In this document: positions 24,349 through 37,957 of the stretch, one piece after another
Layout of the letters: every line of letters starts with the position of its first letter
Position numbering within the stretch: position 1 is the stretch's first letter
DNA from: Devosia sp. Root413D1
Lineage (GTDB): Bacteria > Pseudomonadota > Alphaproteobacteria > Rhizobiales > Devosiaceae
Assembly (NCBI RefSeq): GCF_001425235.1
Contig: NZ_LMEA01000001.1
Span: 533,855-597,854, forward strand
Direction of reading: 5' to 3'
Length of the DNA: 64,000 nucleotides
The notes under the pieces: generated by a model
What the model was told of the DNA's origin: nothing
What the model saw: only the letters and a program-made list of their open reading frames with translations
The model's database searches: none
Position numbers and translations under genes: made by a program

Positions 24349-25638
24349 TTACCAGCCGGCGAGGCCGAGCTGCTGGGCCTGCTTGCGGACGTCTTCGTCA
24401 TAAAGCTTGGCACCCTCTTCGGCCGTCATGATGCCGGAACCGACCGAGACGGTGATCTGCTCGAGCGCCGGGCCCTTGATGGGCGAGAGGAACTCCAGGG
24501 CCGGAGAGTTGTTACCGCTGTCCCAGAAGGGAAGCATGTCGGAGACGGCGGGCGCCGCACCCTCGAGCACGCAACCCTTGACCAGGAAGGGACCCGTGCC
24601 GCCGCCGGTGCTCTTGAGAATCTCGCAGCCTTCGGGACTTACAACGAAAGCCAGGAACTTCTTGGCAGCATCGAGATTGGGCGTGTTCTTCGACACATAG
24701 AGCGCCTGCGGCATCCAGGCCGTGAGGCCATTCTTGGACGCGTCATCGCTCGGCACCGGGAAGTAGCCGATATCCTTCAGCTGATCCGGATAGGTTGCTC
24801 CCATCGCCCGCAGCGCACCGCTGATGATTGGGTAGTGCGCGCCCTCTCCAGTTGCCAGCATGCGAATGCCGTCCTGGTAGCCGGCCGAGGCGAAATCCTT
24901 GTTGAACAGGCCGGCCTCATACACCTGCTGCAGCTTCTGGAAGCTGCGAAGCGCTGCCGCGTCGGTCGCGAATTTCGCCTTGCCCTCGGTGTAGAGCGTC
25001 GCGAAATCGGGCTCGGCCGCCTGGACATTGTAGAAGTCGGCGAGGATCAGTATCTGGCTCGTCCAACTGTCCTTGTAGGTCTGGATAATCGGGGCGATCT
25101 TGCCGTCTTTGAGAATTGCCTCATTGTTCGCGAGGAACTCGTCCCAGGTTTTGGGAATGGAGAGACCAAGCCGCTCATAGACGGGCTTGTTGTAAAGGAT
25201 GCCGCCGGCAGAAGCGGTGCTGAATGGCGCCCCTACGATGGCGCCCTCCGGTGTCGAGACTACGCGCTTGAACGTCTCCTGCACATCTGCCTGCCATGGC
25301 TCGTTGCTGAGATCGGCCATGAATTGCCCGGGATTGAGTGCCCTGAGCAGCGAACCCGAGTTGTAGGTAAAAAGGTCCGTGATCGTACCCGTTGCAAGAC
25401 GGGTCTTTACGAGGTTGCCCCCTTCCTCGCCGCCGGGCCTCGTTTCGATCTCGATGTTGACATCGGGGTTCGCAGCTTCAAAACCCGCCACGAGAGCCTC
25501 GAACCGCGTCAGCACTTCAGGCGAGTTGTCGACGAGCAGCGATAGGGTCACCTGCTGCGCATTAGCGCCCCCTGCAATCAGCGCCATCGCAAACAGACTG
25601 GCGCCCGCCAGCACGTTGCGGATCGATAGTTTAGCCAT
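24349..25638 (-). CDS. Sugar ABC transporter substrate-binding protein
   Basis: 429-residue periplasmic binding protein with a signal peptide (ending GGANAQQ). Typical CUT1 motifs are GFEAANPDVNIEIETRPGG, GGILYNKPVYERLGL and PKTWDEFLANNEAI. It heads the importer operon; a LacI-type operator (25788-25801) lies about 150 bp upstream. The substrate is inferred only from the adjoining GH78 gene. Confidence 0.92.
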   Translation of the reverse strand: MAKLSIRNVLAGASLFAMALIAGGANAQQVTLSLLVDNSPEVLTRFEALVAGFEAANPDVNIEIETRPGGEEGGNLVKTRLATGTITDLFTYNSGSLLRALNPGQFMADLSNEPWQADVQETFKRVVSTPEGAIVGAPFSTASAGGILYNKPVYERLGLSIPKTWDEFLANNEAILKDGKIAPIIQTYKDSWTSQILILADFYNVQAAEPDFATLYTEGKAKFATDAAALRSFQKLQQVYEAGLFNKDFASAGYQDGIRMLATGEGAHYPIISGALRAMGATYPDQLKDIGYFPVPSDDASKNGLTAWMPQALYVSKNTPNLDAAKKFLAFVVSPEGCEILKSTGGGTGPFLVKGCVLEGAAPAVSDMLPFWDSGNNSPALEFLSPIKGPALEQITVSVGSGIMTAEEGAKLYDEDVRKQAQQLGLAGW

Positions 25639-25825: not shown

Positions 25826-28189
25826 TCAGGGCATGTTCGCCGCAAGCGGGGAGTCATGAACCAATTGCTTGGCCGGTGTAGCGTATTTGAACACGGCGAC
25901 GTGCCGACCCGGCCCGACGATCGGGTGAGCGCCAACCATGATCGGCGCCCCGTCGAGCTCGGCGTCCCGATAGTCCGGAGAGAGGCGCAGCGTGCCCCGC
26001 GCTCCTGCGGGCACGACGAACTCGTAGCGAACCTTGTCACCCGTCAGCGTCCAGGACGCCGAAATCCGGCCCCGTATCGAGTCGTAGTGGGCCGCGACCG
26101 GGGACAATCCATCCACGACAGTTGGCGAGAAGATGACGCTTTCAAAGCCCGGCGCATGCTCGTCAGGCCGGAAGCCTGCGACGCCTTCCAACAGCCACTC
26201 GCACACGGCCCCAAACGCGTAGTGGTTGAACGAGTTCATCTGCGGATTGTAGATCGTGCCGTCGGCTTGGATGGCATCCCAGCGCTCCCACACGGTCGTT
26301 GCCCCCATCCGCACCTGATAGAGCCAGCCGGGGACATCCTCCTGCAGGAACACCTCACCGGCCAGGGCCCCCTCACCGACCTTTACCAAGGCCGGAAGCA
26401 AAGCCGGTGTCCCGATGAAGCCGGTTCCGAGCCTGCCTCCCGTCCGCATGATGGCGCTCCTGAAGTATCTCGTCGCCGCGGCCAGCTTGTCGCTCGGGAC
26501 CAGGCCATGGAGCAGCGCCAGCGCGTAGGACGTCTGGTCGTCGTAGGCGAGTCGGCCGGAGGGGGTGACAAACTCGTTGCGGAAAGCAGTCTCGACTTCC
26601 GAACGCAGCTTCGACAGCCGCCGGGCGATCTCTGGTTCTCCGACGAGCTCGGCGGCTCGGACTGCGATTCCGAGGCTGATAAAGAGGTAGAGCGTTGCGG
26701 CCGCATCGTCGCCAATCGTCGGCAGCGGCTTGGAACTAGGGCCTTTGGGCTGAAGCCAGTCGCCAAGGCAGAAGCCGCGCGCTCCAGGCGTCGCAGGCGG
26801 ACGCACGATCCCGTCCTTGGTCAACGACCAGACGAAATCGATCCACTTGAGCATCGCCGGCAGCGCTTCGGCCAGGATGTCTTTGTCGCCATATTGCAGG
26901 TAGAGCCGCCACGGAATGACAGTGATAGCGTCGCCCCACCCGGTCGAGCCGTACTGCATGCGCTTGCCCGGCTTCACGCGCACAATATGCGGGGACGTAT
27001 GCGAGATGGCCCCGTCCGGCGCCTGGTCGACCATCAGCTCGCGGACATACTTGACCAGGAAGTCGTGGCTGTCCGCGAGATAGCAGGCGGTGCCGGCGAA
27101 CACCTGTGCGTCGCCACTGAAGCCAAGCCGCTCGTCGCGCTGCGGGCAGTCGGTCGGCACATCGATGAAATTCGAGCGGTGCGACCAGATAGCGTTCTCA
27201 AAAAAGCGGTTCACCAGCTGGTTGCCGCTCGAGAACGAGGCAGTCGCCTCGGGGACGGACGAGATCGGCACGGACTGGATGCGCCTGACACGCGCGCTCC
27301 CGCTGATGGTGACGCGGGCGTAGCGGAAGCCCTGATAGGTGAAGTGCGGGCTATAGTCTGCGAGCCCCCGCTCGTCGAGGTGCAGCCTGATGATTGCTTC
27401 GGCGCTGCGGTAGTTGCCGTTGTAGAACTGCCCGTGCTTGTCGAGCACTTCGGCGTGCTCGATGAGAACCTGCGACGGCCCCTCGGCCGCGAGGCTGAGC
27501 CGAACGTATCCTGCGGTGTTCTGTCCGAAATCGTAAAGGGTGCGGCCCTCGCTGTCTTGCCACTGCTTCACCGGATCGAGCGGCCGAAGCTCGCGCACCG
27601 GATCGCATTCATGGGCAATGAGCTTGCGAGGATCGAAATCGACAACCTCGACGCCCTCTTGCGTTTCCGGGGCCAGGGTCGCGTCGAAGATCTCGCCGAA
27701 ATAGATCTGCGACTTGCGGACGGGTGTTTCGCCGCTCCCCCACTGCTCATCGGTGCACACCACGATATCGGCCAGATCTGCCCCGCCTCTGATCTCGGCG
27801 ATTGCGGAAACCCTGGTGCCCCAGATGTTCTTCCGCCGCTCCTCGATCCACATCAGCGGCGATCGGTACCAACCATCGCCGATCCAAATCGTAATGGTAT
27901 TGGCGCCCTGCTTGAGCAGGCCGGCCACGTCGTAGACCTGATAGGAGAGCCTTGCGTCATAGTTCGTCCAGCCGGGCGTCAGTACGTCCTCGCCGACCCG
28001 CCGGCCGTTGATGAATGCCCAATAGAGCCCGAGGGCCGATATCCGGAGTACCTCGTTCCCGTTGAGCCGGGCGACATGGAACTCTCGGGTGATCTGGCTG
28101 GCCGGGGCGCCTTCGCCACCATCGGCCAGGGGGCGGATCATCTTGGCTGCCCAACCGATGGCCTCAACGCCTTTAGCCCCTTTGATCAA
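25826..28189 (-). CDS. Alpha-L-rhamnosidase (GH78)
   Basis: 787-residue GH78 enzyme releasing terminal alpha-L-rhamnose. Beta-sandwich domains precede the (alpha/alpha)6 barrel. The family signature CPQRDERLGFSGD falls at residues 348-360 (Glu353 probable acid), and TTVWERWDAI carries a second conserved Glu; GDWLQP is also typical. A TTG start at 28189 follows a good GGGAGG box, whereas the frame upstream is uncharacteristic. No signal peptide is present, so it acts on imported substrate in the cytoplasm. Confidence 0.92.
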   Translation of the reverse strand: MIKGAKGVEAIGWAAKMIRPLADGGEGAPASQITREFHVARLNGNEVLRISALGLYWAFINGRRVGEDVLTPGWTNYDARLSYQVYDVAGLLKQGANTITIWIGDGWYRSPLMWIEERRKNIWGTRVSAIAEIRGGADLADIVVCTDEQWGSGETPVRKSQIYFGEIFDATLAPETQEGVEVVDFDPRKLIAHECDPVRELRPLDPVKQWQDSEGRTLYDFGQNTAGYVRLSLAAEGPSQVLIEHAEVLDKHGQFYNGNYRSAEAIIRLHLDERGLADYSPHFTYQGFRYARVTISGSARVRRIQSVPISSVPEATASFSSGNQLVNRFFENAIWSHRSNFIDVPTDCPQRDERLGFSGDAQVFAGTACYLADSHDFLVKYVRELMVDQAPDGAISHTSPHIVRVKPGKRMQYGSTGWGDAITVIPWRLYLQYGDKDILAEALPAMLKWIDFVWSLTKDGIVRPPATPGARGFCLGDWLQPKGPSSKPLPTIGDDAAATLYLFISLGIAVRAAELVGEPEIARRLSKLRSEVETAFRNEFVTPSGRLAYDDQTSYALALLHGLVPSDKLAAATRYFRSAIMRTGGRLGTGFIGTPALLPALVKVGEGALAGEVFLQEDVPGWLYQVRMGATTVWERWDAIQADGTIYNPQMNSFNHYAFGAVCEWLLEGVAGFRPDEHAPGFESVIFSPTVVDGLSPVAAHYDSIRGRISASWTLTGDKVRYEFVVPAGARGTLRLSPDYRDAELDGAPIMVGAHPIVGPGRHVAVFKYATPAKQLVHDSPLAANMP

Positions 28190-28220
28190 TTCCGACCTCC
28201 CAACGCTCAAATGAAAAAAC

Positions 28221-28234
28221 GTGCAAGGTTGCAC
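28221..28234. promoter_or_regulatory. LacI-type operator GTGCAAGGTTGCAC, copy 2
   Basis: Identical to the site at 25788-25801; 32 bp upstream of the GH78 start and in the divergent gap to the LacI regulator at 28394, so it could control both directions. Confidence 0.7.
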
Positions 28235-28393
28235 ACCGAGGTCGTGTAACGTCGTTCGAACGACAATACAACGGGCTGTTTCTACGGAAGGGAGTGGACT
28301 TGCGGGTGAAGGATAAGGCGGCATCGGCAGCGGAACCTCGCCGTTTGCCGAGAATCCAACAGTTCTGCTATCGACAGCTGAAGGGAGCGTGAC

Positions 28394-29422
28394 ATGAACA
28401 AAATCGAGCGAAATCGGCCTGGCCAAACCAACGGAAAGCCGAAGCGCGTCACTATCCTGCAGGTAGCCGCAGATGCCGGCGTTTCGTTCGCAGCCGTCTC
28501 GAAGGTGTTGCGCAACGCCTATGGGGTGAGCGAGTCACTTCGCGAGCGGGTGAACGCGTCGATAAAGAAGCTCGGCTACACCCCCAACACCGCCGCCCGC
28601 GGGTTGCGCGGACGCTCATTCGTCGTCGGCGTGGTCTTTCCCGATATGCGCAATCCCTTCCTCGCCGACATCTTTGCCGGCATCAGTGCGGGATTCGAGC
28701 GCACCCCCTACCAGGCGGTGCAAGGCATCGCCTCCCAATCAAACGAGCGCGACCTCACCCAGGCGATGATCGACATGCAGATGGATGGGCTCATACTCGT
28801 TTCGAGCAGCCTGTCCCCCGAACAGCTCACCGATCTCGGCAGCCGTATTCCAGCTGTCGCCATCGGCAATCGGCCTCTCGTCGAGACCACCTTCGACACC
28901 GTAAACAACAATGACGAGCAAAGCGGACGATTGGTCGTGCAGCATCTGGCAAAGCAGGGCGCCGAGCGCATCGCCATGCTGAGCCTTGAACATCCCACAG
29001 CGATGCGGATGCGTGAAAGTGGCTACCGGCACGAGATGGAGGCTCAGGGGCTCTCCGCCTACATCAATATCGCCCGCACCGAACAGACCCCAAGAGGGAT
29101 ATATGGCGGCATGGAGAAGCTGCTCGAGAGCCGGCCACAGGCCCTCTTCTGCTGGTGCGATGCCGTGGCCTTCGAATCGATCAGCCACGCGCGGTCAAAT
29201 GGGCTTCGCGTTCCGGAGGACCTGGCCATCGTCGGCCACGACAACACCGTCTACTGCGCACTCGATCAAAACAGCCTGACGAGTGTCGATCAGTCGGGCG
29301 AGCAGATCGGCACGCATGCTGCGAGGTTGCTCGTCGAAAGGTTCGAGGGGCGGATCGAAACCGAACAGATTCTACTGCAGCCTCGGTTGGTTGTACGTCG
29401 CAGCAGCACCCTTGACGGATGA
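28394..29422 (+). CDS. LacI-family regulator of the rhamnoside locus
   Basis: 342 residues: a helix-turn-helix at about 20-45 (VTILQVAADAGVSFAAVSKVLRNAYGVS), a hinge, then the effector domain (SFVVGVVFPDMRNPFLADIFAGI; NGLRVPEDLAIVGHDNT). It is divergent from GH78 with a GTGCAAGGTTGCAC palindrome between them. It probably represses the importer and GH78 in the absence of inducer. Confidence 0.88.
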   Translation: MNKIERNRPGQTNGKPKRVTILQVAADAGVSFAAVSKVLRNAYGVSESLRERVNASIKKLGYTPNTAARGLRGRSFVVGVVFPDMRNPFLADIFAGISAGFERTPYQAVQGIASQSNERDLTQAMIDMQMDGLILVSSSLSPEQLTDLGSRIPAVAIGNRPLVETTFDTVNNNDEQSGRLVVQHLAKQGAERIAMLSLEHPTAMRMRESGYRHEMEAQGLSAYINIARTEQTPRGIYGGMEKLLESRPQALFCWCDAVAFESISHARSNGLRVPEDLAIVGHDNTVYCALDQNSLTSVDQSGEQIGTHAARLLVERFEGRIETEQILLQPRLVVRRSSTLDG

Positions 29423-29606: not shown

Positions 29607-30665
29607 TCAACCACCAGTGCCTGCCGCGTCAGCGATCTGCATCTCTCTGGCCTGGGCACTGGATCGCCGCGCCACCACCGGGCATTTGAGGACCCGCCGC
29701 TCCGTTTCGCTGCCCTTGCCGTGCACCAGCTGGTCCAGCATGTCGGCGCCCTGCCAGCCCAGGTCGTAATAGGGTAGGGCCACCGTGGTCAGCTCGGGTT
29801 TGAGGCCGAGCGACACTGTGCGGAAATCGTCGAAGCCGACAATGGTGATGTCATCGGGCACGCGCAGGCCGAGGGATAGCGCGGCCAGGTAGGCCTGCAG
29901 CGCCATCTCATCATTGCCGCAGACCAGCGCCGTCGGGCGATCGGGCATCGACAGGATATCGAGGGTCTCCCGATAGACGTAGTTGGTCTCGCGGCCGACC
30001 GGCCCCTCCATGCCCAGCCGGATGACCAGGTCGCTTTCAGCGATGCCAGCTGCCTGTGCCGCAGCAAGGAAGGCATCGAGTCGCTGATTGGCGCCCAGCA
30101 GCAGGGGGTTCAGCCGGATGTAGCCGATGCGGCGATGTCCAAGCGCGATCAGGTGCTCCGTAAGGGCATAGGATCCACCGAAATCATCCGGCTCGATCGA
30201 CGGATAGACATAGCCGTCTTCGGGATGCGAGTTGACCAGCACCGTCGGGATCGAGACCTCGCCTGCCGCCGGCACCACCACCCGGTGGTACATCGCGACA
30301 TAGAGCACGCCGTCGATGCGGTGCGCCTTGAAGGTGCGCCAGACATTGGCCTCCCGCGTCGGGTCGCCATCGGTGTTGGCCAGCAGCACGGTGCGGCCAT
30401 TGGCGCCGGCCCAATCCTGAACGCCCCGGACGATATCGCCCGAGTACGGCGTCGTCGAAATGAAGTCGGTGATGATGCCGATGATGTTGGTGCGGTTCGA
30501 GCGGATGCTGCGCGCCGCGAGGTTCGGGATGTAGCCGAGATCGGCAATCGCCAGCTGTACCTTTTCGATTGTGTCAGCGGTGACGTTGGGCTCGCCGTTG
30601 ACCACGCGGGACACGGTTTTGTCCGAGACGCCGGCGACCCGAGCGACATCCTTGATGCTGACCAT
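29607..30665 (-). CDS. LacI-family regulator of the GH91/GH32 operon
   Basis: 352 residues starting MVSIKDVARVAGVSDKTVSRVVNGEPNV, a standard LacI helix-turn-helix, followed by a binding-protein-like effector domain (GYIRLNPLLLGANQRLDAFLAA; VPDDITIVGFDDF). It is divergent from the transporter-GH91-GH32 operon across 172 bp that holds three GTCGAC-centred palindromes. It is the obvious local repressor. Confidence 0.88.
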   Translation of the reverse strand: MVSIKDVARVAGVSDKTVSRVVNGEPNVTADTIEKVQLAIADLGYIPNLAARSIRSNRTNIIGIITDFISTTPYSGDIVRGVQDWAGANGRTVLLANTDGDPTREANVWRTFKAHRIDGVLYVAMYHRVVVPAAGEVSIPTVLVNSHPEDGYVYPSIEPDDFGGSYALTEHLIALGHRRIGYIRLNPLLLGANQRLDAFLAAAQAAGIAESDLVIRLGMEGPVGRETNYVYRETLDILSMPDRPTALVCGNDEMALQAYLAALSLGLRVPDDITIVGFDDFRTVSLGLKPELTTVALPYYDLGWQGADMLDQLVHGKGSETERRVLKCPVVARRSSAQAREMQIADAAGTGG

Positions 30666-30723
30666 TCGTTCTCCCCCACAAGCGCCGGCAACTCTAGCGG
30701 CGCGGCAAGTGAGCCGCAACCGA

Positions 30724-30779
30724 CAACGTCGACATTCGCGATGTCGACGATGTCATTTCAATTGACGACGTCGACATTG
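30724..30779. promoter_or_regulatory. Three GTCGAC-centred palindromes (LacI-type operators)
   Basis: GTCGAC occurs at 30728, 30743 and 30770 in the divergent gap, with flanks such as AACGTCGACATT and GACGACGTCGACATTG. LacI-family sites usually have a central CG, as here. The first two are 15 bp apart, the third 27 bp further. Confidence 0.65.
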
Positions 30780-30837
30780 CTGCCTATGGTCCGGCTGCTC
30801 CGGGTCGTTCTCCGTGAGCCGAAATTGAGGAGGGGAC

Positions 30838-32079
30838 ATGAACAAGACGCTATTTGGCGCGGTGGCCGCGCTTTGCCTCGCAACGTCCGCGGCGCAGGCC
30901 GAAGCCATCACCGTACTGGTTGAAGGTGGTGGCCATTCGCTGCAGCAGGCCGCTGCCGATGCCTTCACCAAGGAGACCGGCATTGAGGTCAACTTCGTCG
31001 AGGTGCCCTATCAGGGCGTGTTCGACAAGCTGACCGCCGAGATCGCTTCGGGGACCTCGAACTACGATGTCGCGACCATCGACGTGGTCTGGAACGCCGC
31101 CTTCGCCTCGCATGTCGAGGATCTGAGCGACCTGTTTACCGATGCCGTGAAGGCCGACATTCCGCCGGCCCTTCTCGCCGACGCCACTGTCGGCGGCAAG
31201 CTGATCGCCATGCCCGCCTGGGCCAACGCCGAGATCGTCTTCTATAGGAAGGACCTGTGGGAAGACCCAGCCAACCAGGCGGCGTTCAAAGCGCAATATG
31301 GCTATGACCTCGCCCCGCCGGCCGACTGGCAGCAGTGGCGCGACATGGCCAAGTTCTTCACCAAGGATGGCATGTTCGGCACCGACGTGATCGGCGCGAC
31401 CTCCGAAGAATGGATGGCCGAGGTGCTGCAGGCCGGCTCGCCCGGGGTGATCCTCGATGACGCAGGTCAGGTCATCCTCGACAACCAGGCCCATATCGAC
31501 GCGCTGGTGAACTACCGGGCGCCGCTCTGCGAAGATAAATCAGCGCCCGACAATGCGCTCGAAATCAACTGGGGCGAGGCCCAGAACCTGTTCTACCAGG
31601 GCCAGACCGCCATGATGAAGTTCTGGGCCCACGCCTACAAGATGACGCCGGAAGACAGCAAGATCGCCGGCAAGGTCGGCGTCGCGCCGATGATCGGCGG
31701 CCCGGCCGGCATCGCCGGTATCCCCGGCCCTTGGTACAACGTCATTCCATCGACGTCTGAGCATAAGGACGCAGCGCGGCAGTTCATCGCTTTTGCCATT
31801 GCCCACAACGGGCTGGGCATCGAGGCGCCGCTCGGGCTCGCTGCCACCAACTCGGCCTATGCCAGCTACACCGACAAGCCCGGCTACGAGCATTTCGGGC
31901 CGCTGCTGGCGACGCTGTCGGCGCCGGCAACCAAGGGCCGGCCGATCAATGAACACTACCAGGAACTGGTCGATGAAGCCGTGATGCCCGCCTTCCAGGG
32001 CGCCCTCGAATGCCAGGACAACGTCGCGGAACTGCTGCACGATGCGGCGGCCACCGCCCGAGATATCCTCGGCCAATAA
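30838..32079 (+). CDS. Sugar ABC transporter substrate-binding protein (fructan/DFA locus)
   Basis: 413-residue periplasmic binding protein with a signal peptide (ending SAAQAEA). Segments such as FTKETGIEVNFVEVPYQGVFDKLTAEIASG and AEIVFYRKDLWED mark it as CUT1. An AGGAGGGG box precedes the ATG. It starts the operon SBP-permease-permease-GH91-GH32, so its ligand is probably a difructose anhydride or short fructo-oligosaccharide (inference). Confidence 0.92.
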   Translation: MNKTLFGAVAALCLATSAAQAEAITVLVEGGGHSLQQAAADAFTKETGIEVNFVEVPYQGVFDKLTAEIASGTSNYDVATIDVVWNAAFASHVEDLSDLFTDAVKADIPPALLADATVGGKLIAMPAWANAEIVFYRKDLWEDPANQAAFKAQYGYDLAPPADWQQWRDMAKFFTKDGMFGTDVIGATSEEWMAEVLQAGSPGVILDDAGQVILDNQAHIDALVNYRAPLCEDKSAPDNALEINWGEAQNLFYQGQTAMMKFWAHAYKMTPEDSKIAGKVGVAPMIGGPAGIAGIPGPWYNVIPSTSEHKDAARQFIAFAIAHNGLGIEAPLGLAATNSAYASYTDKPGYEHFGPLLATLSAPATKGRPINEHYQELVDEAVMPAFQGALECQDNVAELLHDAAATARDILGQ

Positions 32080-32148
32080 GCATCCAGGAACTCTCGGGGC
32101 CGGGGCGGCGATCTGCCTCGGTCCCAACTGATCAACGGGGGAGGGAGC

Positions 32149-33027
32149 ATGACCGAACGCAGGTTCGTGCTGCTTATGCTGATGCCGGCCATGCTGTTCC
32201 TGGGGCTCCTTGTGGTCTACCCGGTGGCGCTGCTGGTCTACAATTCGTTCTTCGACGTCAAACTGATCGATCCGGCGAGCCGCGTCTTTGTGGGGCTGGC
32301 GAACTATATCGAGGCCCTGACGTCGAGACGGATCCTCGAGTCCGCCGTCAGGACCCTCAAATACTCCGTCTTCGCGCTGTTCTTCGAGCTGCTGTTCGGT
32401 CTCGGCGCGGCGCTGCTGTTTGCGGCGATCGCCCGGCATTCGCATTGGCACCGCACCATTTTCGCCCTGCCGCTGATGATCTCGCCGATCGTCGCCGGCC
32501 TGCTGTGGCGATTTCTCCTCGTCGGCAATATCGGCATCCTCAATTACGGGCTCGCCGCACTCGGCATCATTCCTGACCCGGGCGCCATCAAGTGGCTGTC
32601 CGACACCGACATCGTGATCTACTCGGTGGCGGCCGCCGATATCTGGCTGACCACCTCGTTCGTTGCGCTGGTCAGCTATGCCGGCCTGATGAACATCCCG
32701 CGCGATGTGCTCGAGGCGGCGCGGATCGACGGCACCAATGCCATCAACCGGTTCTGGTACATCACCCTGCCGATGCTGCGCCCGGTGCTGGCGGTGGTTG
32801 TGGTGGTCCGTGGCATCGATGCCCTCAAGACCTTCGATCTGATCTGGATCCAGACCCAGGGCGGGCCGCGCCAGCAGAGCGAAGTGCTGTCGATGAACAT
32901 CTACCAGCGCATGGTGCGCTATGGCGATCTCGGCCAGGCCTCGGCCACCGCAACGCTGTTTCTGCTGGTGATGATCGGTATCGCCGGCCTCGCCTACTGG
33001 AAGATCTGGAGAGCCGACCGTGGCTGA
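32149..33027 (+). CDS. CUT1 permease (MalF-like)
   Basis: 292-residue inner-membrane permease with six helices and the EAA loop IPRDVLEAARIDGTNAINRFWYITLPML. A GGGGGAGGGAG box precedes the ATG. Overlaps the next permease by 8 nt. Confidence 0.92.
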   Translation: MTERRFVLLMLMPAMLFLGLLVVYPVALLVYNSFFDVKLIDPASRVFVGLANYIEALTSRRILESAVRTLKYSVFALFFELLFGLGAALLFAAIARHSHWHRTIFALPLMISPIVAGLLWRFLLVGNIGILNYGLAALGIIPDPGAIKWLSDTDIVIYSVAAADIWLTTSFVALVSYAGLMNIPRDVLEAARIDGTNAINRFWYITLPMLRPVLAVVVVVRGIDALKTFDLIWIQTQGGPRQQSEVLSMNIYQRMVRYGDLGQASATATLFLLVMIGIAGLAYWKIWRADRG

Positions 33028-33856
33028 TCGCGCCCCCATCGATCTCACGAAGCTCATCATCCATGCGGTGGCGCTGCTGCTGGTGCTGTCCTATGCGCTG
33101 CCCTACCTCTACCTCGTCTCGACGGCGCTGAAGCCGGCGGTCGACGTCCAGCAGATCCCGCCATCCTTCCTCCCGCAGCGGCTGTCCCTCGAGAATTTCA
33201 CCAGCGTCATCGGGACCGTCGGGCTGCCGGAAGCGTTCCTGAACTCCGCCATCGTCGCGGTGCTGACGACGCTGCTGTCGTTGCTCATCGCGGTTCCCGC
33301 CGCCTATGTCTCGGCGCTCTACCGCCGGCGGCTCACCATGCTCTTCATGCTGTTTGCGCTGATCACCCGCATGGTGCCGGCGGTGTCGCTGGGGGTGCCG
33401 CTGTTCCAGATCATGAAGACGCTGGGCTTGCTGGACACCACCATCGGTCTCGTCCTCGCTCACACCTCCACCGCTGTTCCCCTTGCCATGCTGCTGATGG
33501 CGGCCTTCTTCGAAGGCGTGCCGAAGGAGCTGGAGGAAGCGGCCCGGGTGGATGGCTGCACCCGTTTTGGCGCCTTCTGGCACATCGTCCTGCCGGTGAT
33601 GCCGAGCGGCCTCGCCATCACCGCGCTGTTCAGCTTCATCGCCAGCTGGAACGAGTTTCTCTACGCCCTGCTGCTCACCTCCGAGAGCAGCAAGACGGCG
33701 CCGATCGTCATCGCGGAGTTCAACTCCGTCTATGGCCTCGCCTGGGGGCCGATGACCGCCGCCGCCGTCCTCTATTCCCTCCCCGTCATCCTCGTCACCC
33801 TCGTCCTGCAAAAGCAGATTGTCGGCGGGCTGACCTTCGGCGCCGTGAAAGGCTAG
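33020..33856 (+). CDS. CUT1 permease (MalG-like)
   Basis: 278-residue permease: EAA loop VPKELEEAARVDGCTRFGAFWHIVLPVM and C-terminus KQIVGGLTFGAVKG. Ends 4 bp before the GH91 gene. No ATPase gene follows, so the importer must borrow one. Confidence 0.92.
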   Translation: MADRAPIDLTKLIIHAVALLLVLSYALPYLYLVSTALKPAVDVQQIPPSFLPQRLSLENFTSVIGTVGLPEAFLNSAIVAVLTTLLSLLIAVPAAYVSALYRRRLTMLFMLFALITRMVPAVSLGVPLFQIMKTLGLLDTTIGLVLAHTSTAVPLAMLLMAAFFEGVPKELEEAARVDGCTRFGAFWHIVLPVMPSGLAITALFSFIASWNEFLYALLLTSESSKTAPIVIAEFNSVYGLAWGPMTAAAVLYSLPVILVTLVLQKQIVGGLTFGAVKG

Positions 33857-33860
33857 TCCC

Positions 33861-35282
33861 ATGGCAAGTATCGAACTCGACAAAATCAGCCAGGGCCAGG
33901 GCAGGCCCAGCGCCAATGTCTACAACGTGACCGAGTGGCCAGCCGGCAATCCGCACGACGATATCGGAGCGGTGATCAACAGCATCATCGCCGATATCAA
34001 GCGGCGGCAAGCGGCGCCCGATGTCAACGACGGTGGCAAGCCCGGTGCCGTGATCTACATCCCGCCCGGCGACTTCCGGCTGCGCACGCAAGTCCGCATC
34101 GACATCAGCTTTCTGCGCATCGTCGGATCGGGGCATGGCTTCACCTCGTCGAGCATCCGTTTCAACACGCCTAGGCCTGAGCTCGAGCAGTGGCACGAAG
34201 TCTGGCCGGGGGGTAGCCGCGTCCTCGTCGATCTCGTCGGGCCAGCCGGCGACGGAGCTGCCGGTGCGGCATTCCTGGTGCAGCGCGCCGGCAATCCTCG
34301 CATCAGTTCGGTCGAGTTCGCCGACTTCTGCATCGATGGCCTGCATTTCACCGATGCCTCGAACGGCGACGCGGAGAATTCCTACCGCAACGGCAAGACC
34401 GGCATTCACATCGCCAGCGCCAATGACTCGTTTCGCATCACCGGCATGGGGCTGGTCTACCTGGAGCATGGCGTCGTCTCCCATCAAGCTGACGCCTCGA
34501 CCATCGACAACAACTTCATCGCCGAATGCGGCAACTGCATCGAGCTACGCGGCATGGGGCAGGCCTCGAAAATCTCCAACAACCTGATCGGCGCCGGCTA
34601 TGCCGGGCACTCGATCTATGCCGAGAATTTCGGTGGCCTGCTGGTCTCCGGCAACAACGTTTTCCCGCGCGGGCGGAGCAGCATCGAATTCTCGGGCGTG
34701 GTCAGATCGTCCATTACCGGCAACCGGCTGCATTCGTTCTATCCGGGAATGCTGGTCTTCTCCGGCAATTGCTCGGAGAACCTCGTCGCCTCCAATCACT
34801 TCCTGCGCGACCACGAGCCTTGGGCCCCGATGACCAGGTACGATAATGGGCTGGATGATCAGTTCGGCCTGCTGCATCTGAGCGGCGACAACAATTCGGT
34901 CATCGCCAACCATATCTCGGCCTCGATCGACACCCGGTTCCTGAAGCCCGCCAACGAGAAACCGGTGATTATCCGGATCGTCTCGGGCACCGGCAACTAT
35001 GTCGCCAACAACCACATCGTGGCGACGACCGAGCGGGCCACGGCCAACGACGCGCCCAACAGCGACTGCTTTGCGACGCAGGTCGAGGCCATTCTCTCAA
35101 CCAGGAACCTGACGGCCCTCGAGGTGGTCGCCGTGCAGGTCGAACCGGCCTCCACCGGGAACACCATCCTCGATTCCGGCAGCGACATTGAGGTGCTGAT
35201 CGATAAGTCGGTGAACGCCTTTCGCGGCACGCCCGTGCCCGGGCAGGCCCGAGCGCAAGACAGCTCTCGGATCGACAGTTGA
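33861..35282 (+). CDS. GH91 protein: inulin fructotransferase / difructose-anhydride hydrolase family
   Basis: 473-residue right-handed parallel beta-helix protein that I recognise as GH91. Family-like segments are DIGAVINSIIADIKRRQ, DVNDGGKPGAVIYIPPGDFRLRTQV (54-78), SYRNGKTGIHIASANDS, GLVYLEHGVV, FIAECGNCIELRGMGQ (219-234) and NGLDDQFGLLHLSGDNN. GH91 covers secreted inulin fructotransferases that make difructose anhydrides and intracellular enzymes that hydrolyse them. No signal peptide is present and a sugar importer and GH32 flank it, so hydrolysis of an imported anhydride to inulobiose is more likely. In the presumed active-site stretch, Asp216, Glu222 and Glu228 are present and residue 217 is Asn. 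Confidence 0.8.
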   Translation: MASIELDKISQGQGRPSANVYNVTEWPAGNPHDDIGAVINSIIADIKRRQAAPDVNDGGKPGAVIYIPPGDFRLRTQVRIDISFLRIVGSGHGFTSSSIRFNTPRPELEQWHEVWPGGSRVLVDLVGPAGDGAAGAAFLVQRAGNPRISSVEFADFCIDGLHFTDASNGDAENSYRNGKTGIHIASANDSFRITGMGLVYLEHGVVSHQADASTIDNNFIAECGNCIELRGMGQASKISNNLIGAGYAGHSIYAENFGGLLVSGNNVFPRGRSSIEFSGVVRSSITGNRLHSFYPGMLVFSGNCSENLVASNHFLRDHEPWAPMTRYDNGLDDQFGLLHLSGDNNSVIANHISASIDTRFLKPANEKPVIIRIVSGTGNYVANNHIVATTERATANDAPNSDCFATQVEAILSTRNLTALEVVAVQVEPASTGNTILDSGSDIEVLIDKSVNAFRGTPVPGQARAQDSSRIDS

Positions 35283-36952
35283 AATCCTCCGTCAGCCTCC
35301 CCGCCGGCTACCGGCTCGAATTCTGGGCGCGCGGGCCGGGGTCGATCCGCATTTCCGAGGCCGATGCCGTGCTGTGGCAGGTCCCGGCATTCTCCGGCCA
35401 CGTGGATTTCTTCGGTTACCAGCACCGCGAGGCCGGCAGCGTCACCGTCGAATGGCAGAGGCCCGAGGCGATCCTCTGGGCTTATGGCTACGATCCGGCT
35501 GATGTCGCCGAGGCCGGCATCACCCTCTGGGAATTCGATGAGGCCGGGCTGACGCTCAGCACCAAGCCTGAGATCGATGCCTCGATGCGCTCCGATCCGG
35601 CGCGGCCGATCATGCATTTCTCGCCACCCCGCCAATGGATGAACGACCCGAACGGCCTCTGCAAGATCGGCGAGACCTGGCACCTGTTCTATCAGTTTCA
35701 CCCTGCCGGCACCGAGTGGGGCCCGATGCACTGGGGACACGCGGTCAGCACCGACCTGTTCAACTGGACCCACCTGCCGGTGTTCCTCCACCCCGAGCAG
35801 AACCTCTGGCGGCTCGGAGCCAGCGGCGGCGCTTTCTCCGGCTCGGCATTTACCGACCGCGACGGCAGCCGCATGTTCTTTTACACCGAACGCCTGCCGG
35901 CCTATGACCTGTTCCAGGGCTATCGCGAGGTGCAGAAGCTGGCCCGGCCGGGGCGGGACGCGCTGCACGCCACCGGCTCGGAGACGGTGCTTACACTGCG
36001 TCCCGACGGCGTCGAGCACGATTTCCGCGACCCCAAGGTCTGGTGGGACGAGGCGGCAGGCGCCTACCGCATGGTGCTGGGTGCGGCGCTCTATGGCGAT
36101 CCCGCCGTGCTGCTCTATGGTTCGGACAACCTCAGCGACTGGGCCTATCTGGGCCCGCTCTATCGGGGGCCGGCGCACTACCGGGAAAACGGCGCCCGGG
36201 CGGTCGAGTGCCCCGACTTCTTCCCGCTAGATGGCAAGTGGGTGATGGTCATGGGCTTTGTCGGCTATACCGAACCGGCGACTGGCCGCCACAACCTGCT
36301 GTTCGCCCGGGTTGGTGAGTTCAAGGGCGACCGCTTCGTCCCTGATACCGACGATTTGCAGGTCCTCGACTTCGGCACCGACTTTTACGCCATGCAGAGT
36401 TTTGAGGCCGAGGGCCGACAGATCGCCTTGGCCTGGCTGTTCAACTGGGAATCCCGCAAGCCTGCCGGCTCGCCCTATTCGGGCGAGATGTCGCTGCCGC
36501 GCGAACTCAGCCTCGATGGCTCCGGGCGGCTGCGCATGCACCCGGTGACCGAGCTGGATAGCGCCTGGCAGGCTCATCCCCTGGCCCAGGAGCCGGATGG
36601 GAGCGTCCTGCTGCGGGACGCGCCGGTCGAGCTCCGCCTGTCTGGCAACCTCGACGGCACAAAGATCGTCGCGACTGAGAGCGGCGCCCTCTGCTTCGAG
36701 CTATCGGTATCGGGCGGTCGCCTTGCGGTTCGACTGGCTGGGGATGACGGGAAGATCCGCTACGAGGCCACGTGTGGGTCGGCCACCGATCTTCGCATCG
36801 TCTACGACCGCGGCATCGTTGAGATCTTCGCCGACTACGGGGCCGTCTGCGGCACGCGGCGCGGCTACACCAACATCGCCCCGGACAGGCTTGAAGTCAC
36901 ATCGCTCGCCCAATTCACCGTGTCCGAGCGGCGAGCGGTTCAACTACCCTGA
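35279..36952 (+). CDS. GH32 fructosidase
   Basis: 557-residue glycoside hydrolase cleaving beta-fructosides. The five-bladed propeller holds WMNDPNG (Asp123 nucleophile), FRDPK (Asp251, transition-state stabiliser) and ECPDFF (Glu310 acid/base); a C-terminal beta-sandwich ends with IVEIFADYG. About 105 residues precede the propeller, an N-terminal extension. The TTG start overlaps the GH91 stop (TTGA), so the two are co-translated. There is no signal peptide. It probably splits inulobiose or short fructans in the cytoplasm. Confidence 0.92.
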   Translation: MKSSVSLPAGYRLEFWARGPGSIRISEADAVLWQVPAFSGHVDFFGYQHREAGSVTVEWQRPEAILWAYGYDPADVAEAGITLWEFDEAGLTLSTKPEIDASMRSDPARPIMHFSPPRQWMNDPNGLCKIGETWHLFYQFHPAGTEWGPMHWGHAVSTDLFNWTHLPVFLHPEQNLWRLGASGGAFSGSAFTDRDGSRMFFYTERLPAYDLFQGYREVQKLARPGRDALHATGSETVLTLRPDGVEHDFRDPKVWWDEAAGAYRMVLGAALYGDPAVLLYGSDNLSDWAYLGPLYRGPAHYRENGARAVECPDFFPLDGKWVMVMGFVGYTEPATGRHNLLFARVGEFKGDRFVPDTDDLQVLDFGTDFYAMQSFEAEGRQIALAWLFNWESRKPAGSPYSGEMSLPRELSLDGSGRLRMHPVTELDSAWQAHPLAQEPDGSVLLRDAPVELRLSGNLDGTKIVATESGALCFELSVSGGRLAVRLAGDDGKIRYEATCGSATDLRIVYDRGIVEIFADYGAVCGTRRGYTNIAPDRLEVTSLAQFTVSERRAVQLP

Positions 36953-37114: not shown

Positions 37115-37957
37115 TCAGGCCGGCAGGTCGCTGAGCGAGCGCGGTTCAGCCGCCTCGACATTGTTCACGCTATGGCGGAAGTCGCTCGAGGCTGGATATG
37201 CCGGTCTGCGGGACCGCATGATCGCTCCGAGTGGCCGATGCGCCTCCAGGGCGTGCCAGGGCGCATAGGACATCACATCATCGGCGTAGATGCGGCGCGC
37301 GTCACTCGCGGCGTTCTGCGGTGCAAGGTGAAGGGTCGCCACCGTCTGATGAGGCGAGAGGTCCTCGCGCCATAGCACCGAGGCATCCTCGATCGGCATC
37401 CGGCCGATGTCCGCGCACAACTGCACGCGCAGGGCGAAGTCAGCCGAGTTGTGCGCGAAGAACTCCTCCAGCAAGTCGCGGACCGGCGAACTGGGCCGGC
37501 CAGCGTGATCGACTTCATGGCCCGTCAAAGCACGCACATTGTCGGAAAGCGGTGTCACGCTAAACTTGCCGACATAGTCCCCGAATCGCAGAGCGGCCAT
37601 CGAGTGGAAGGTCTCGCCGAGCGGATGGGCATTCTCCGGTGAAAGGATCTCGACCGGCGCCGGCAATGGGCGGCCCAGCGCCTTGAGCACCCTGGCGGCC
37701 AGACGCGCCTTCCTGCCGATCGAGGCAAGCTCATCGTCCGTCTTGGTCGGTTGCTGCTCGAGCGCCTTCTGCAGCTTGAAGTACTCGCTGACGGTTCCGA
37801 ACGGCAGGGTTGGTGAGTTGACGAGGAGGAAATCCTGCGTGTCCAGACCATCCCCGATCGCGCGCTGGCCTTCCACGCCGAGTACCTTGATGGCCATGCC
37901 GAAGTGAGCGAGCAGCCAGTCGGGCCGGATGTCCCCGGGACCGAGATTGGTAGCCAC
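37115..37957 (-). pseudogene. 5'-truncated catalase-family (SrpA-like) gene
   Basis: 281 codons matching the middle and end of small haem catalase-like proteins: FGMAIKVLGVEG, DTQDFLLVNSPTLPFG, HPLGETFHSMAALRFGDYVGKFSVTPLSDNVRALTG and a C-terminal SRRPAYPASSDFRHSVN with the likely haem-ligand Tyr. The first part expected in the family (roughly 80-100 residues, with the distal His) is missing, and the sequence upstream of 37957 has no match in any frame. Probably inactive. Confidence 0.6.

Follow-up and report, generated by a model that had tools for sequence, protein, structure and literature searches.

In the gut bacterium Blautia, genes for a GH91 difructose anhydride III (DFA III) hydrolase (DFA-IIIase), a GH32 enzyme and an ATP-binding cassette (ABC) transporter are clustered, and the pathway runs from DFA III through inulobiose to fructose, as given in the available excerpts of that study (PMC11538131, 2024). 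The Blautia DFA-IIIase works in both directions, with an equilibrium of 59:41 on the DFA III side, and adding GH32 gave complete conversion; BpDFA-IIIase also acts on GF3, GF4 and inulin, and did not hydrolyze DFA I (data not shown in the paper) (PMC11538131). Growth on DFA III was seen for three cluster-bearing strains; a fourth, B. hansenii, which is unable to use fructose, degraded DFA III and did not grow, and for one strain lacking the cluster no remarkable growth was noted and DFA III stayed in the medium. The route of import, opening and splitting is presented there as a hypothesis (PMC11538131). For Arthrobacter, the DFA-IIIase of A. aurescens lacks a signal peptide (PMC4640833), a GH32 second step has been reported (PMC11538131), and the organism is said to form DFA III itself via an extracellular fructotransferase (PMC8605356). 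Bifidobacterium dentium has an operon with LacI, GH32, DFA I synthase/hydrolase and ABC genes (PMC8605356, 2021), and a three-stage scheme in which cyclic sugars are made, imported and opened was suggested for Arthrobacter too (PMC8605356). Here we describe an operon of Devosia sp. Root413D1 that very probably imports and breaks down DFA III; it lies in a 64,000-nucleotide stretch of DNA (contig NZ_LMEA01000001.1, forward-strand positions 533,855 to 597,854; hereafter the window), whose own coordinates are used below.

The operon contains genes for a solute-binding protein (SBP), two permeases, a GH91 enzyme and a GH32 enzyme, which lie in this order on the plus strand at 30838-36952 with a LacI-type gene divergent from them, as read from the open reading frames (ORFs). 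This is the arrangement that a first-pass annotation of the window had described, and the ORFs, their coordinates and the Pfam calls agree with it:

29607..30665 (ATG at 30665), minus strand: LacI-family regulator, likely the repressor of the operon (Pfam LacI and Peripla_BP_3; the family scans were run on 29607-30656, three codons shorter than the ATG-started gene)
30838..32079, plus strand: SBP of an ABC importer with a signal-peptide-like start, predicted to bind DFA III (Pfam SBP_bac_1, AlphaFold2 fold)
32149..33027, plus strand: ABC importer permease 1 (Pfam BPD_transp_1)
33020..33856, plus strand: ABC importer permease 2, with a GTG start and overlapping permease 1 (Pfam BPD_transp_1)
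33861..35282, plus strand: GH91 enzyme of the putative DFA III hydrolase type (PDB matches, alignment, tree, residue correspondence)
35279..36952, plus strand: GH32 beta-fructofuranosidase, predicted to cleave inulobiose (Pfam GH32 N- and C-terminal domains)

A 69-base gap follows the SBP gene, and the subsequent junctions are an 8-bp overlap, a 4-bp gap and a 4-bp overlap; the tight spacing downstream of the gap speaks for a single transcript. The last junction is the TTGA overlap that had been pointed out earlier, with the TTG start of GH32 inside the GH91 stop codon. The host genome is 5.85 Mb, and the closest named relative at the locus is Devosia insulae DS-56 (locus L017), whose GH91 is 93% identical.

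Compared with the Blautia cluster (Bacillota, gut), for which activity and DFA III use were shown, this locus has the same enzymes, importer type and proposed route, but adds a LacI-type gene with triple operator-like sites and an N-terminal domain on GH32, and has no ATPase gene. No regulator or operator is described for the Blautia cluster in the excerpts of PMC11538131. The enzymes of Arthrobacter (A. aurescens, A. chlorophenolicus and sp. H65-7) are likewise signal-less, and the solved one is 66% identical to the window GH91; unlike Arthrobacter, said to make DFA III itself, the window genome holds a single GH91. The B. dentium operon resembles ours in layout and logic (cyclic difructose import, opening and GH32 cleavage), but its ring opener is an unrelated alpha-fructofuranosidase of DUF2961, which we take to be family GH172, for DFA I, instead of a GH91 for DFA III. 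The first-pass annotation knew of no well-described importer-coupled system in this group; this stands for the Alphaproteobacteria as far as the open-access literature goes, where no paper on DFA use in Rhizobium or Devosia was found, but not more widely, since Blautia (2024) has the same system and B. dentium (2021) a parallel one for DFA I. The system is therefore not new in kind but a well-supported example in another bacterial class; what is new are the alphaproteobacterial and rhizobial-plasmid members, the operator-like motif and, in some relatives, a third clade of GH91 without the lid.

Profile searches gave an incomplete answer for the GH91 protein: in the Pfam scan Beta_helix_2 ('beta helix repeat of inulin fructotransferase') scored 29.0, one bit below its cut-off of 30, NosD scored above its own cut-off, and the NCBIfam scan gave no match. 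A PDB search settled the family, with an E-value of 2.5e-192 to 5zks, the DFA-IIIase of Arthrobacter chlorophenolicus, and of 5.4e-85 to 2.2e-109 to three solved fructotransferases, which places GH91 membership beyond doubt despite the sub-cut-off profile. A NosD function was rejected, the Pfam match reflecting a common beta helix. The protein is 66% identical to 5zks, and 50% and 48% identical to the inulin fructotransferases 2inu and 9j4i, which have the same acidic pair but no lid. This lid region (~390-425) is filled in 79 of 83 aligned rows, window included, and absent from both fructotransferase rows and from two rows of a second GH91 of some relatives (GH91B, see below); the alignment, like the GH32 start comparison and the operator site counts, omits the near copies L029, L030 and L035. 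The lid segment was named in the Blautia study as distinguishing DFA-IIIase from fructotransferase (PMC11538131). Within it, C403 lines up with the cysteine that is mutated in 5zl5 (C387 in that series of structures). D211 and E222 correspond, by motif and by spacing in the mutagenesis primers, to D207 and E218 of the A. aurescens enzyme, whose mutants are inactive (PMC4640833), and this D and E pair is present in all 83 rows, fructotransferases included. The comparison with characterized enzymes that had been proposed as a check places the window GH91 with the DFA-IIIase and apart from the fructotransferases: in a quick tree, in which some branches stay open and L068 and the Arthrobacter row sit on long ones, a 99% branch (Shimodaira-Hasegawa-like approximate likelihood ratio test) separates the 79 DFA-IIIase-type rows from the fructotransferases and GH91B. 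Inulin fructotransferases are secreted; the window GH91 has the lid, and by inspection its N-terminus has no signal-like stretch. Judged by its sequence, it is of the DFA III hydrolase type and is predicted to open DFA III to inulobiose.

Two other roles for this enzyme were weighed. The GH91 protein might be an intracellular fructotransferase that converts imported fragments of inulin into DFA III, to be stored or exported, and the reversibility of the Blautia reaction, with its equilibrium on the DFA III side (59:41), would fit such a role (PMC11538131). However, the lid is of the hydrolase type, the GH32 of the same operon would remove inulobiose, and Pfam identifies no exporter among the five operon genes, so that we regard this role as very improbable. 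It is even harder to credit that the operon serves another difructose anhydride, such as DFA I or a caramel DFA, with the likeness to DFA-IIIase misleading as to the linkage, in view of the 66% identity to DFA-IIIase and the absence of a DUF2961/GH172 match from all five operon proteins (Pfam). BpDFA-IIIase, moreover, did not hydrolyze DFA I, as stated in the paper without the data (PMC11538131).

The conserved partnership of the genes provides the second line of evidence. GH91 relatives were collected from 84,980 species genomes, and all group counts refer to the best 80 of 213, assigned by hand from record titles to alphaproteobacterial, gammaproteobacterial and Bacillota groups. The window's proteins were then searched on the GH91 flanks (9 kb; the genes of L020 were detected by tblastn), and L014-L016, which are the same places as L018, L024 and L041, were left out of the neighbor counts, the motif consensus and the comparisons of GH91 N-termini and GH32 starts. 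Genes for the SBP and both permeases accompany GH91 (same strand, at most 9 kb away) at 26/28 alphaproteobacterial, 30/38 Bacillota and 0/14 enterobacterial loci, and a GH32 match is near GH91 in 27/28, 23/38 and 6/14, respectively. In 25 of the 28 alphaproteobacterial loci a LacI relative (60-97% identical) is likewise no more than 9 kb from GH91, that of L024 being just beyond this distance. As a test against linkage to generic sugar importers, the window SBP was searched in eight Bacillota genomes, with linkage judged by position relative to the GH91 locus ranges. The top match was GH91-linked in all eight (208-340 bits), while the runner-up reached at most 106 bits in seven and the eighth had none; within a genome the GH91-linked SBP is thus clearly set off from the remaining SBPs, pointing to a ligand specific to GH91. 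On plasmids, GH91 matches were found in 85 records (E 1e-5) and SBP matches in 80 (E 1e-60), and the GH91/SBP counts, which were compared by genus and not record by record, agree in Rhizobium (70/70), Agrobacterium (6/6), Sinorhizobium (2/2), Pararhizobium (1/1) and Arthrobacter (1/1). In rhizobia and Agrobacterium the carriers are large plasmids, 30 of the 85 GH91 records are typed as conjugative, and among the 40 plasmid records listed the GH91 is annotated as a NosD-domain or beta-helix protein or is unannotated. Taken together, this co-occurrence in loci, in the eight Bacillota genomes and on plasmids argues most strongly for the GH91 substrate being what the importer transports.

The operon encodes the SBP and two permeases of a CUT1-type importer, as indicated by Pfam and by fold matching. 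The AlphaFold2 model of the SBP (predicted local distance difference test score (pLDDT) 92.6) has a fold like MalE3 and trehalose/maltose binding proteins, and the 50 fold-search matches listed are all sugar-binding proteins of a general kind (17-26% identity), so the ligand is not named by the fold; we infer from the gene partnership that it would be DFA III.

GH32 enzymes have NDPN, RDP and EC motifs and a propeller plus beta-sandwich fold. In the window protein, D123, R250-D251-P252 and E310-C311 are invariant across 24 aligned proteobacterial sequences, window included, and its model (pLDDT 90.4) has 6nob of Bifidobacterium adolescentis as its top PDB match, with 3pig and 1uyp also matching. 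By inspection the N-terminus has no evident signal, so the earlier claim that GH91 and GH32 both lack a signal peptide was borne out. The start codon is TTG in five of six close relatives (L017-L021) and GTG in L022, according to a script that chose the start nearest to the window's. The protein carries an N-terminal beta domain of ~100 amino acids, which alphaproteobacterial GH32 proteins encoded next to GH91 also have, as do five of the six enterobacterial ones read, while those of L056 and of Bacillota begin after its position. A Pfam scan of this domain found no family at E 0.01. We did not retain it as new, since the 6nob match (634 residues, 644 alignment columns) seems to span it; from these lengths, 6nob probably shares the domain.

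Upstream of the SBP gene, a 14-bp imperfect palindrome, TGWCRACGTCGWCA, is present in three copies starting at 30721, 30742 and 30763, 21 bp apart:

30721..30734, plus strand: operator-like site 1, CGACAACGTCGACA, one mismatch to TGWCRACGTCGWCA, kept in relatives
30742..30755, plus strand: operator-like site 2, TGTCGACGATGTCA, one mismatch, read on the minus strand, 21 bp from site 1
30763..30776, plus strand: operator-like site 3, TGACGACGTCGACA, overlapping the likely -35 element, the sole perfect match in the genome
30762..30790, plus strand: likely sigma-70 type promoter, read from the sequence, with TTGACG at 30762-30767, a 17-base spacer and TATGGT at 30785-30790

Site 3 is the only perfect TGWCRACGTCGWCA match in the 5.85-Mb genome. 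To compare relatives, we took regions in which LacI (at least 55% identity) and SBP (at least 60%) matches lie within 600 bases, which gave 27, or 24 distinct alphaproteobacterial regions (window included) without three near copies. As expected of a LacI-type regulator, conserved palindromes lie over the promoter in 24/24: each region has two to four TGWCRACGTCGWCA-type sites (three in 21), mostly spaced by 21 or 22 bp, and in all 24 no more than one site appeared in any of 100 shuffles per region. TTGACR falls on the last site in 23 of the 24, the script having picked an extra weak site in L068, and TATGGT is found at exactly 17 bases in only seven. The first-pass annotation had singled out three GTCGAC palindromes here. 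Three conserved sites are indeed present, but GTCGAC is frequent in the window and a mere part of TGWCRACGTCGWCA; with 40 occurrences against 23.2 expected, a number that none of 100 shuffles reached, it was rejected as the operator in favor of the 14-bp motif. A wider regulon was also rejected: there are 37 strand hits in the genome (up to one mismatch) against 29 for a reversed control, so that single sites elsewhere look like background, and sites cluster at the operon only. The simplest reading is that the LacI-type protein would repress the operon via neighboring sites on one helix face.

From the gene order, the GH91 subtype, the enzyme N-termini without signal-like stretches, the conserved operator-like sites and the conserved gene partnership, we infer a mechanism of import, ring opening, cleavage and repression. 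The secreted SBP would catch DFA III in the periplasm and deliver it to the two permeases, with an ATPase from another locus supplying the energy. In the cytosol GH91 would open the ring to inulobiose, and GH32, made from the overlapping gene, would split inulobiose into two fructoses, and this removal of inulobiose would drive the reversible opening step. The LacI-type protein would repress the promoter via three operators two helical turns apart and release them on binding an inducer, for which DFA III, inulobiose and fructose are candidates. The earlier reading, import of DFA followed by opening by GH91 and cleavage to fructose, is thereby strengthened, and DFA III in particular is favored because the GH91 has the lid, residues and grouping of a DFA-IIIase and because the SBP accompanies DFA-IIIase across phyla.

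Several observations weigh against this mechanism. The importer genes were not found within 9 kb of GH91 in any of the 14 enterobacterial loci, in 8 of the 38 Bacillota loci or in 2 of the 28 alphaproteobacterial loci (some contigs end nearby), nor was GH32, searched with the window's protein as the query, near 15/38 Bacillota and 8/14 enterobacterial GH91 genes. By the counts, five plasmid records have GH91 without a window-type SBP (two of Latilactobacillus and one each of Limosilactobacillus, Rahnella and Citrobacter). No gene for a MalK-type importer ATPase, a point on which the first-pass annotation was silent, is among the ORFs of the operon or of its relatives L017, L018, L020 and L021, unlike 23 of the 28 alphaproteobacterial GH91 loci, in which an ATPase is present. 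ATPases shared among such importers are known, many MalK-like genes lie elsewhere in the window genome, and a search of this genome gave 150 ABC-type matches, the one with the best E-value being 51% identical over nearly its full length, with none singled out; the ATPase would presumably be supplied from among them. On the regulatory side, two of the three window sites carry one mismatch each, the -10 element is weak, and the site consensus was derived from the same regions in which the sites were then counted, so that the count shows conservation and is not an independent prediction. Finally, GF3, GF4 and inulin are further substrates of the Blautia enzyme (PMC11538131), so that short inulin-type fructans may be imported along with DFA III or even be the true cargo. 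In the latter case the importer would carry short inulin-type fructo-oligosaccharides, from which cytosolic GH91 removes DFA III or inulobiose units, DFA III being a mere by-product. We consider this unlikely, as GH32 should suffice for such oligosaccharides and GH91 would be superfluous, the GH91-linked SBPs stand apart as described above, and the window GH91 is of the DFA-IIIase and not the fructotransferase type.

With DFA III as the cargo, the source of the sugar can be considered. The window genome has one GH91 and three GH32-type matches, and inspection revealed no evident secretion signal on any of these proteins (the start of one GH32-type protein is uncertain). In this genome neither family yielded a secreted enzyme that would degrade inulin or make DFA III, so the cell would have to gather DFA III made by others. 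A fructokinase search of the genome returned eight general PfkB-type matches, the best at 35%. GH91 is present (E 1e-50) in 10 of 136 Devosiaceae genomes and in 7 of 19 of the window's own genus, and of 397 genomes sampled from the order, 7 have a match at E 0.001, 3 of them only a weak one; the GH91 operon is an accessory trait. The operon extends the sugar route of Arthrobacter and gut Blautia to Devosia, rhizobia and other Alphaproteobacteria, offers a directly testable binding protein, ring opener and regulator with a defined candidate operator, and allows one to ask whether bacteria near inulin-rich roots share DFA III as a food. A broader picture, which we advance tentatively and judge somewhat less probable than its negation, comprises a family of importers devoted to DFA III that has kept its link with DFA-IIIase in Alphaproteobacteria, Arthrobacter and Bacillota alike, a plasmid-borne scavenging trait in rhizobia and Agrobacterium, and a new cytosolic reaction of GH91B on another DFA. 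If this were true, bacteria that make no DFA III would live on what inulin-degrading neighbors release near roots.

GH91B lies in or beside the operon of Pleomorphomonas koreensis, Rhizobium mongolense, R. multihospitium and the pAt plasmid of Agrobacterium tumefaciens Ach5 (L015 12542-13741, minus strand; L034 and L035, upstream of LacI; L121 10511-11716). It has neither the lid nor a signal-like start, and the three GH91B compared are 83-87% identical to one another and 45-52% identical to nine other rows; on these comparisons, GH91B appears as a third GH91 clade beside the DFA-IIIases and fructotransferases. In Histidinibacterium aquaticum (L068), the importer and LacI are 70-81% identical to the window's, against 60-75% for rhizobia, while its long-branched GH91 is less close (67% against 71-74%); a swap or fast evolution of GH91 alone is possible. 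The three enterobacterial loci examined have a carrier of ~475 residues close upstream of GH91, which in L045 matches Pfam MFS_2 and in L053 and L056 is alike by eye. PfkB-type kinase matches lie near GH91 in several loci, and one ORF of L067 resembles a ROK kinase by eye. The GH91 of Pectobacterium betavasculorum (L048 10001-11344) carries the lid region and falls in the DFA-IIIase group; an 'inulin fructotransferase DFA-I-forming' was listed as specific to this species (PMC10991766, 2024), a label that the lid and grouping make doubtful if the same gene is meant.

Just downstream of the operon, a 280-amino-acid ORF (window 37115-37957, minus strand) has no Pfam match at E 0.01. On the other side, an alpha-L-rhamnosidase gene adjoins another SBP, permease-like ORFs and a second LacI-type regulator (window 25826-28426, minus; 24349-25638, minus; 28394-29422, plus), and this group is perhaps a separate rhamnoside uptake operon adjoining the DFA operon.

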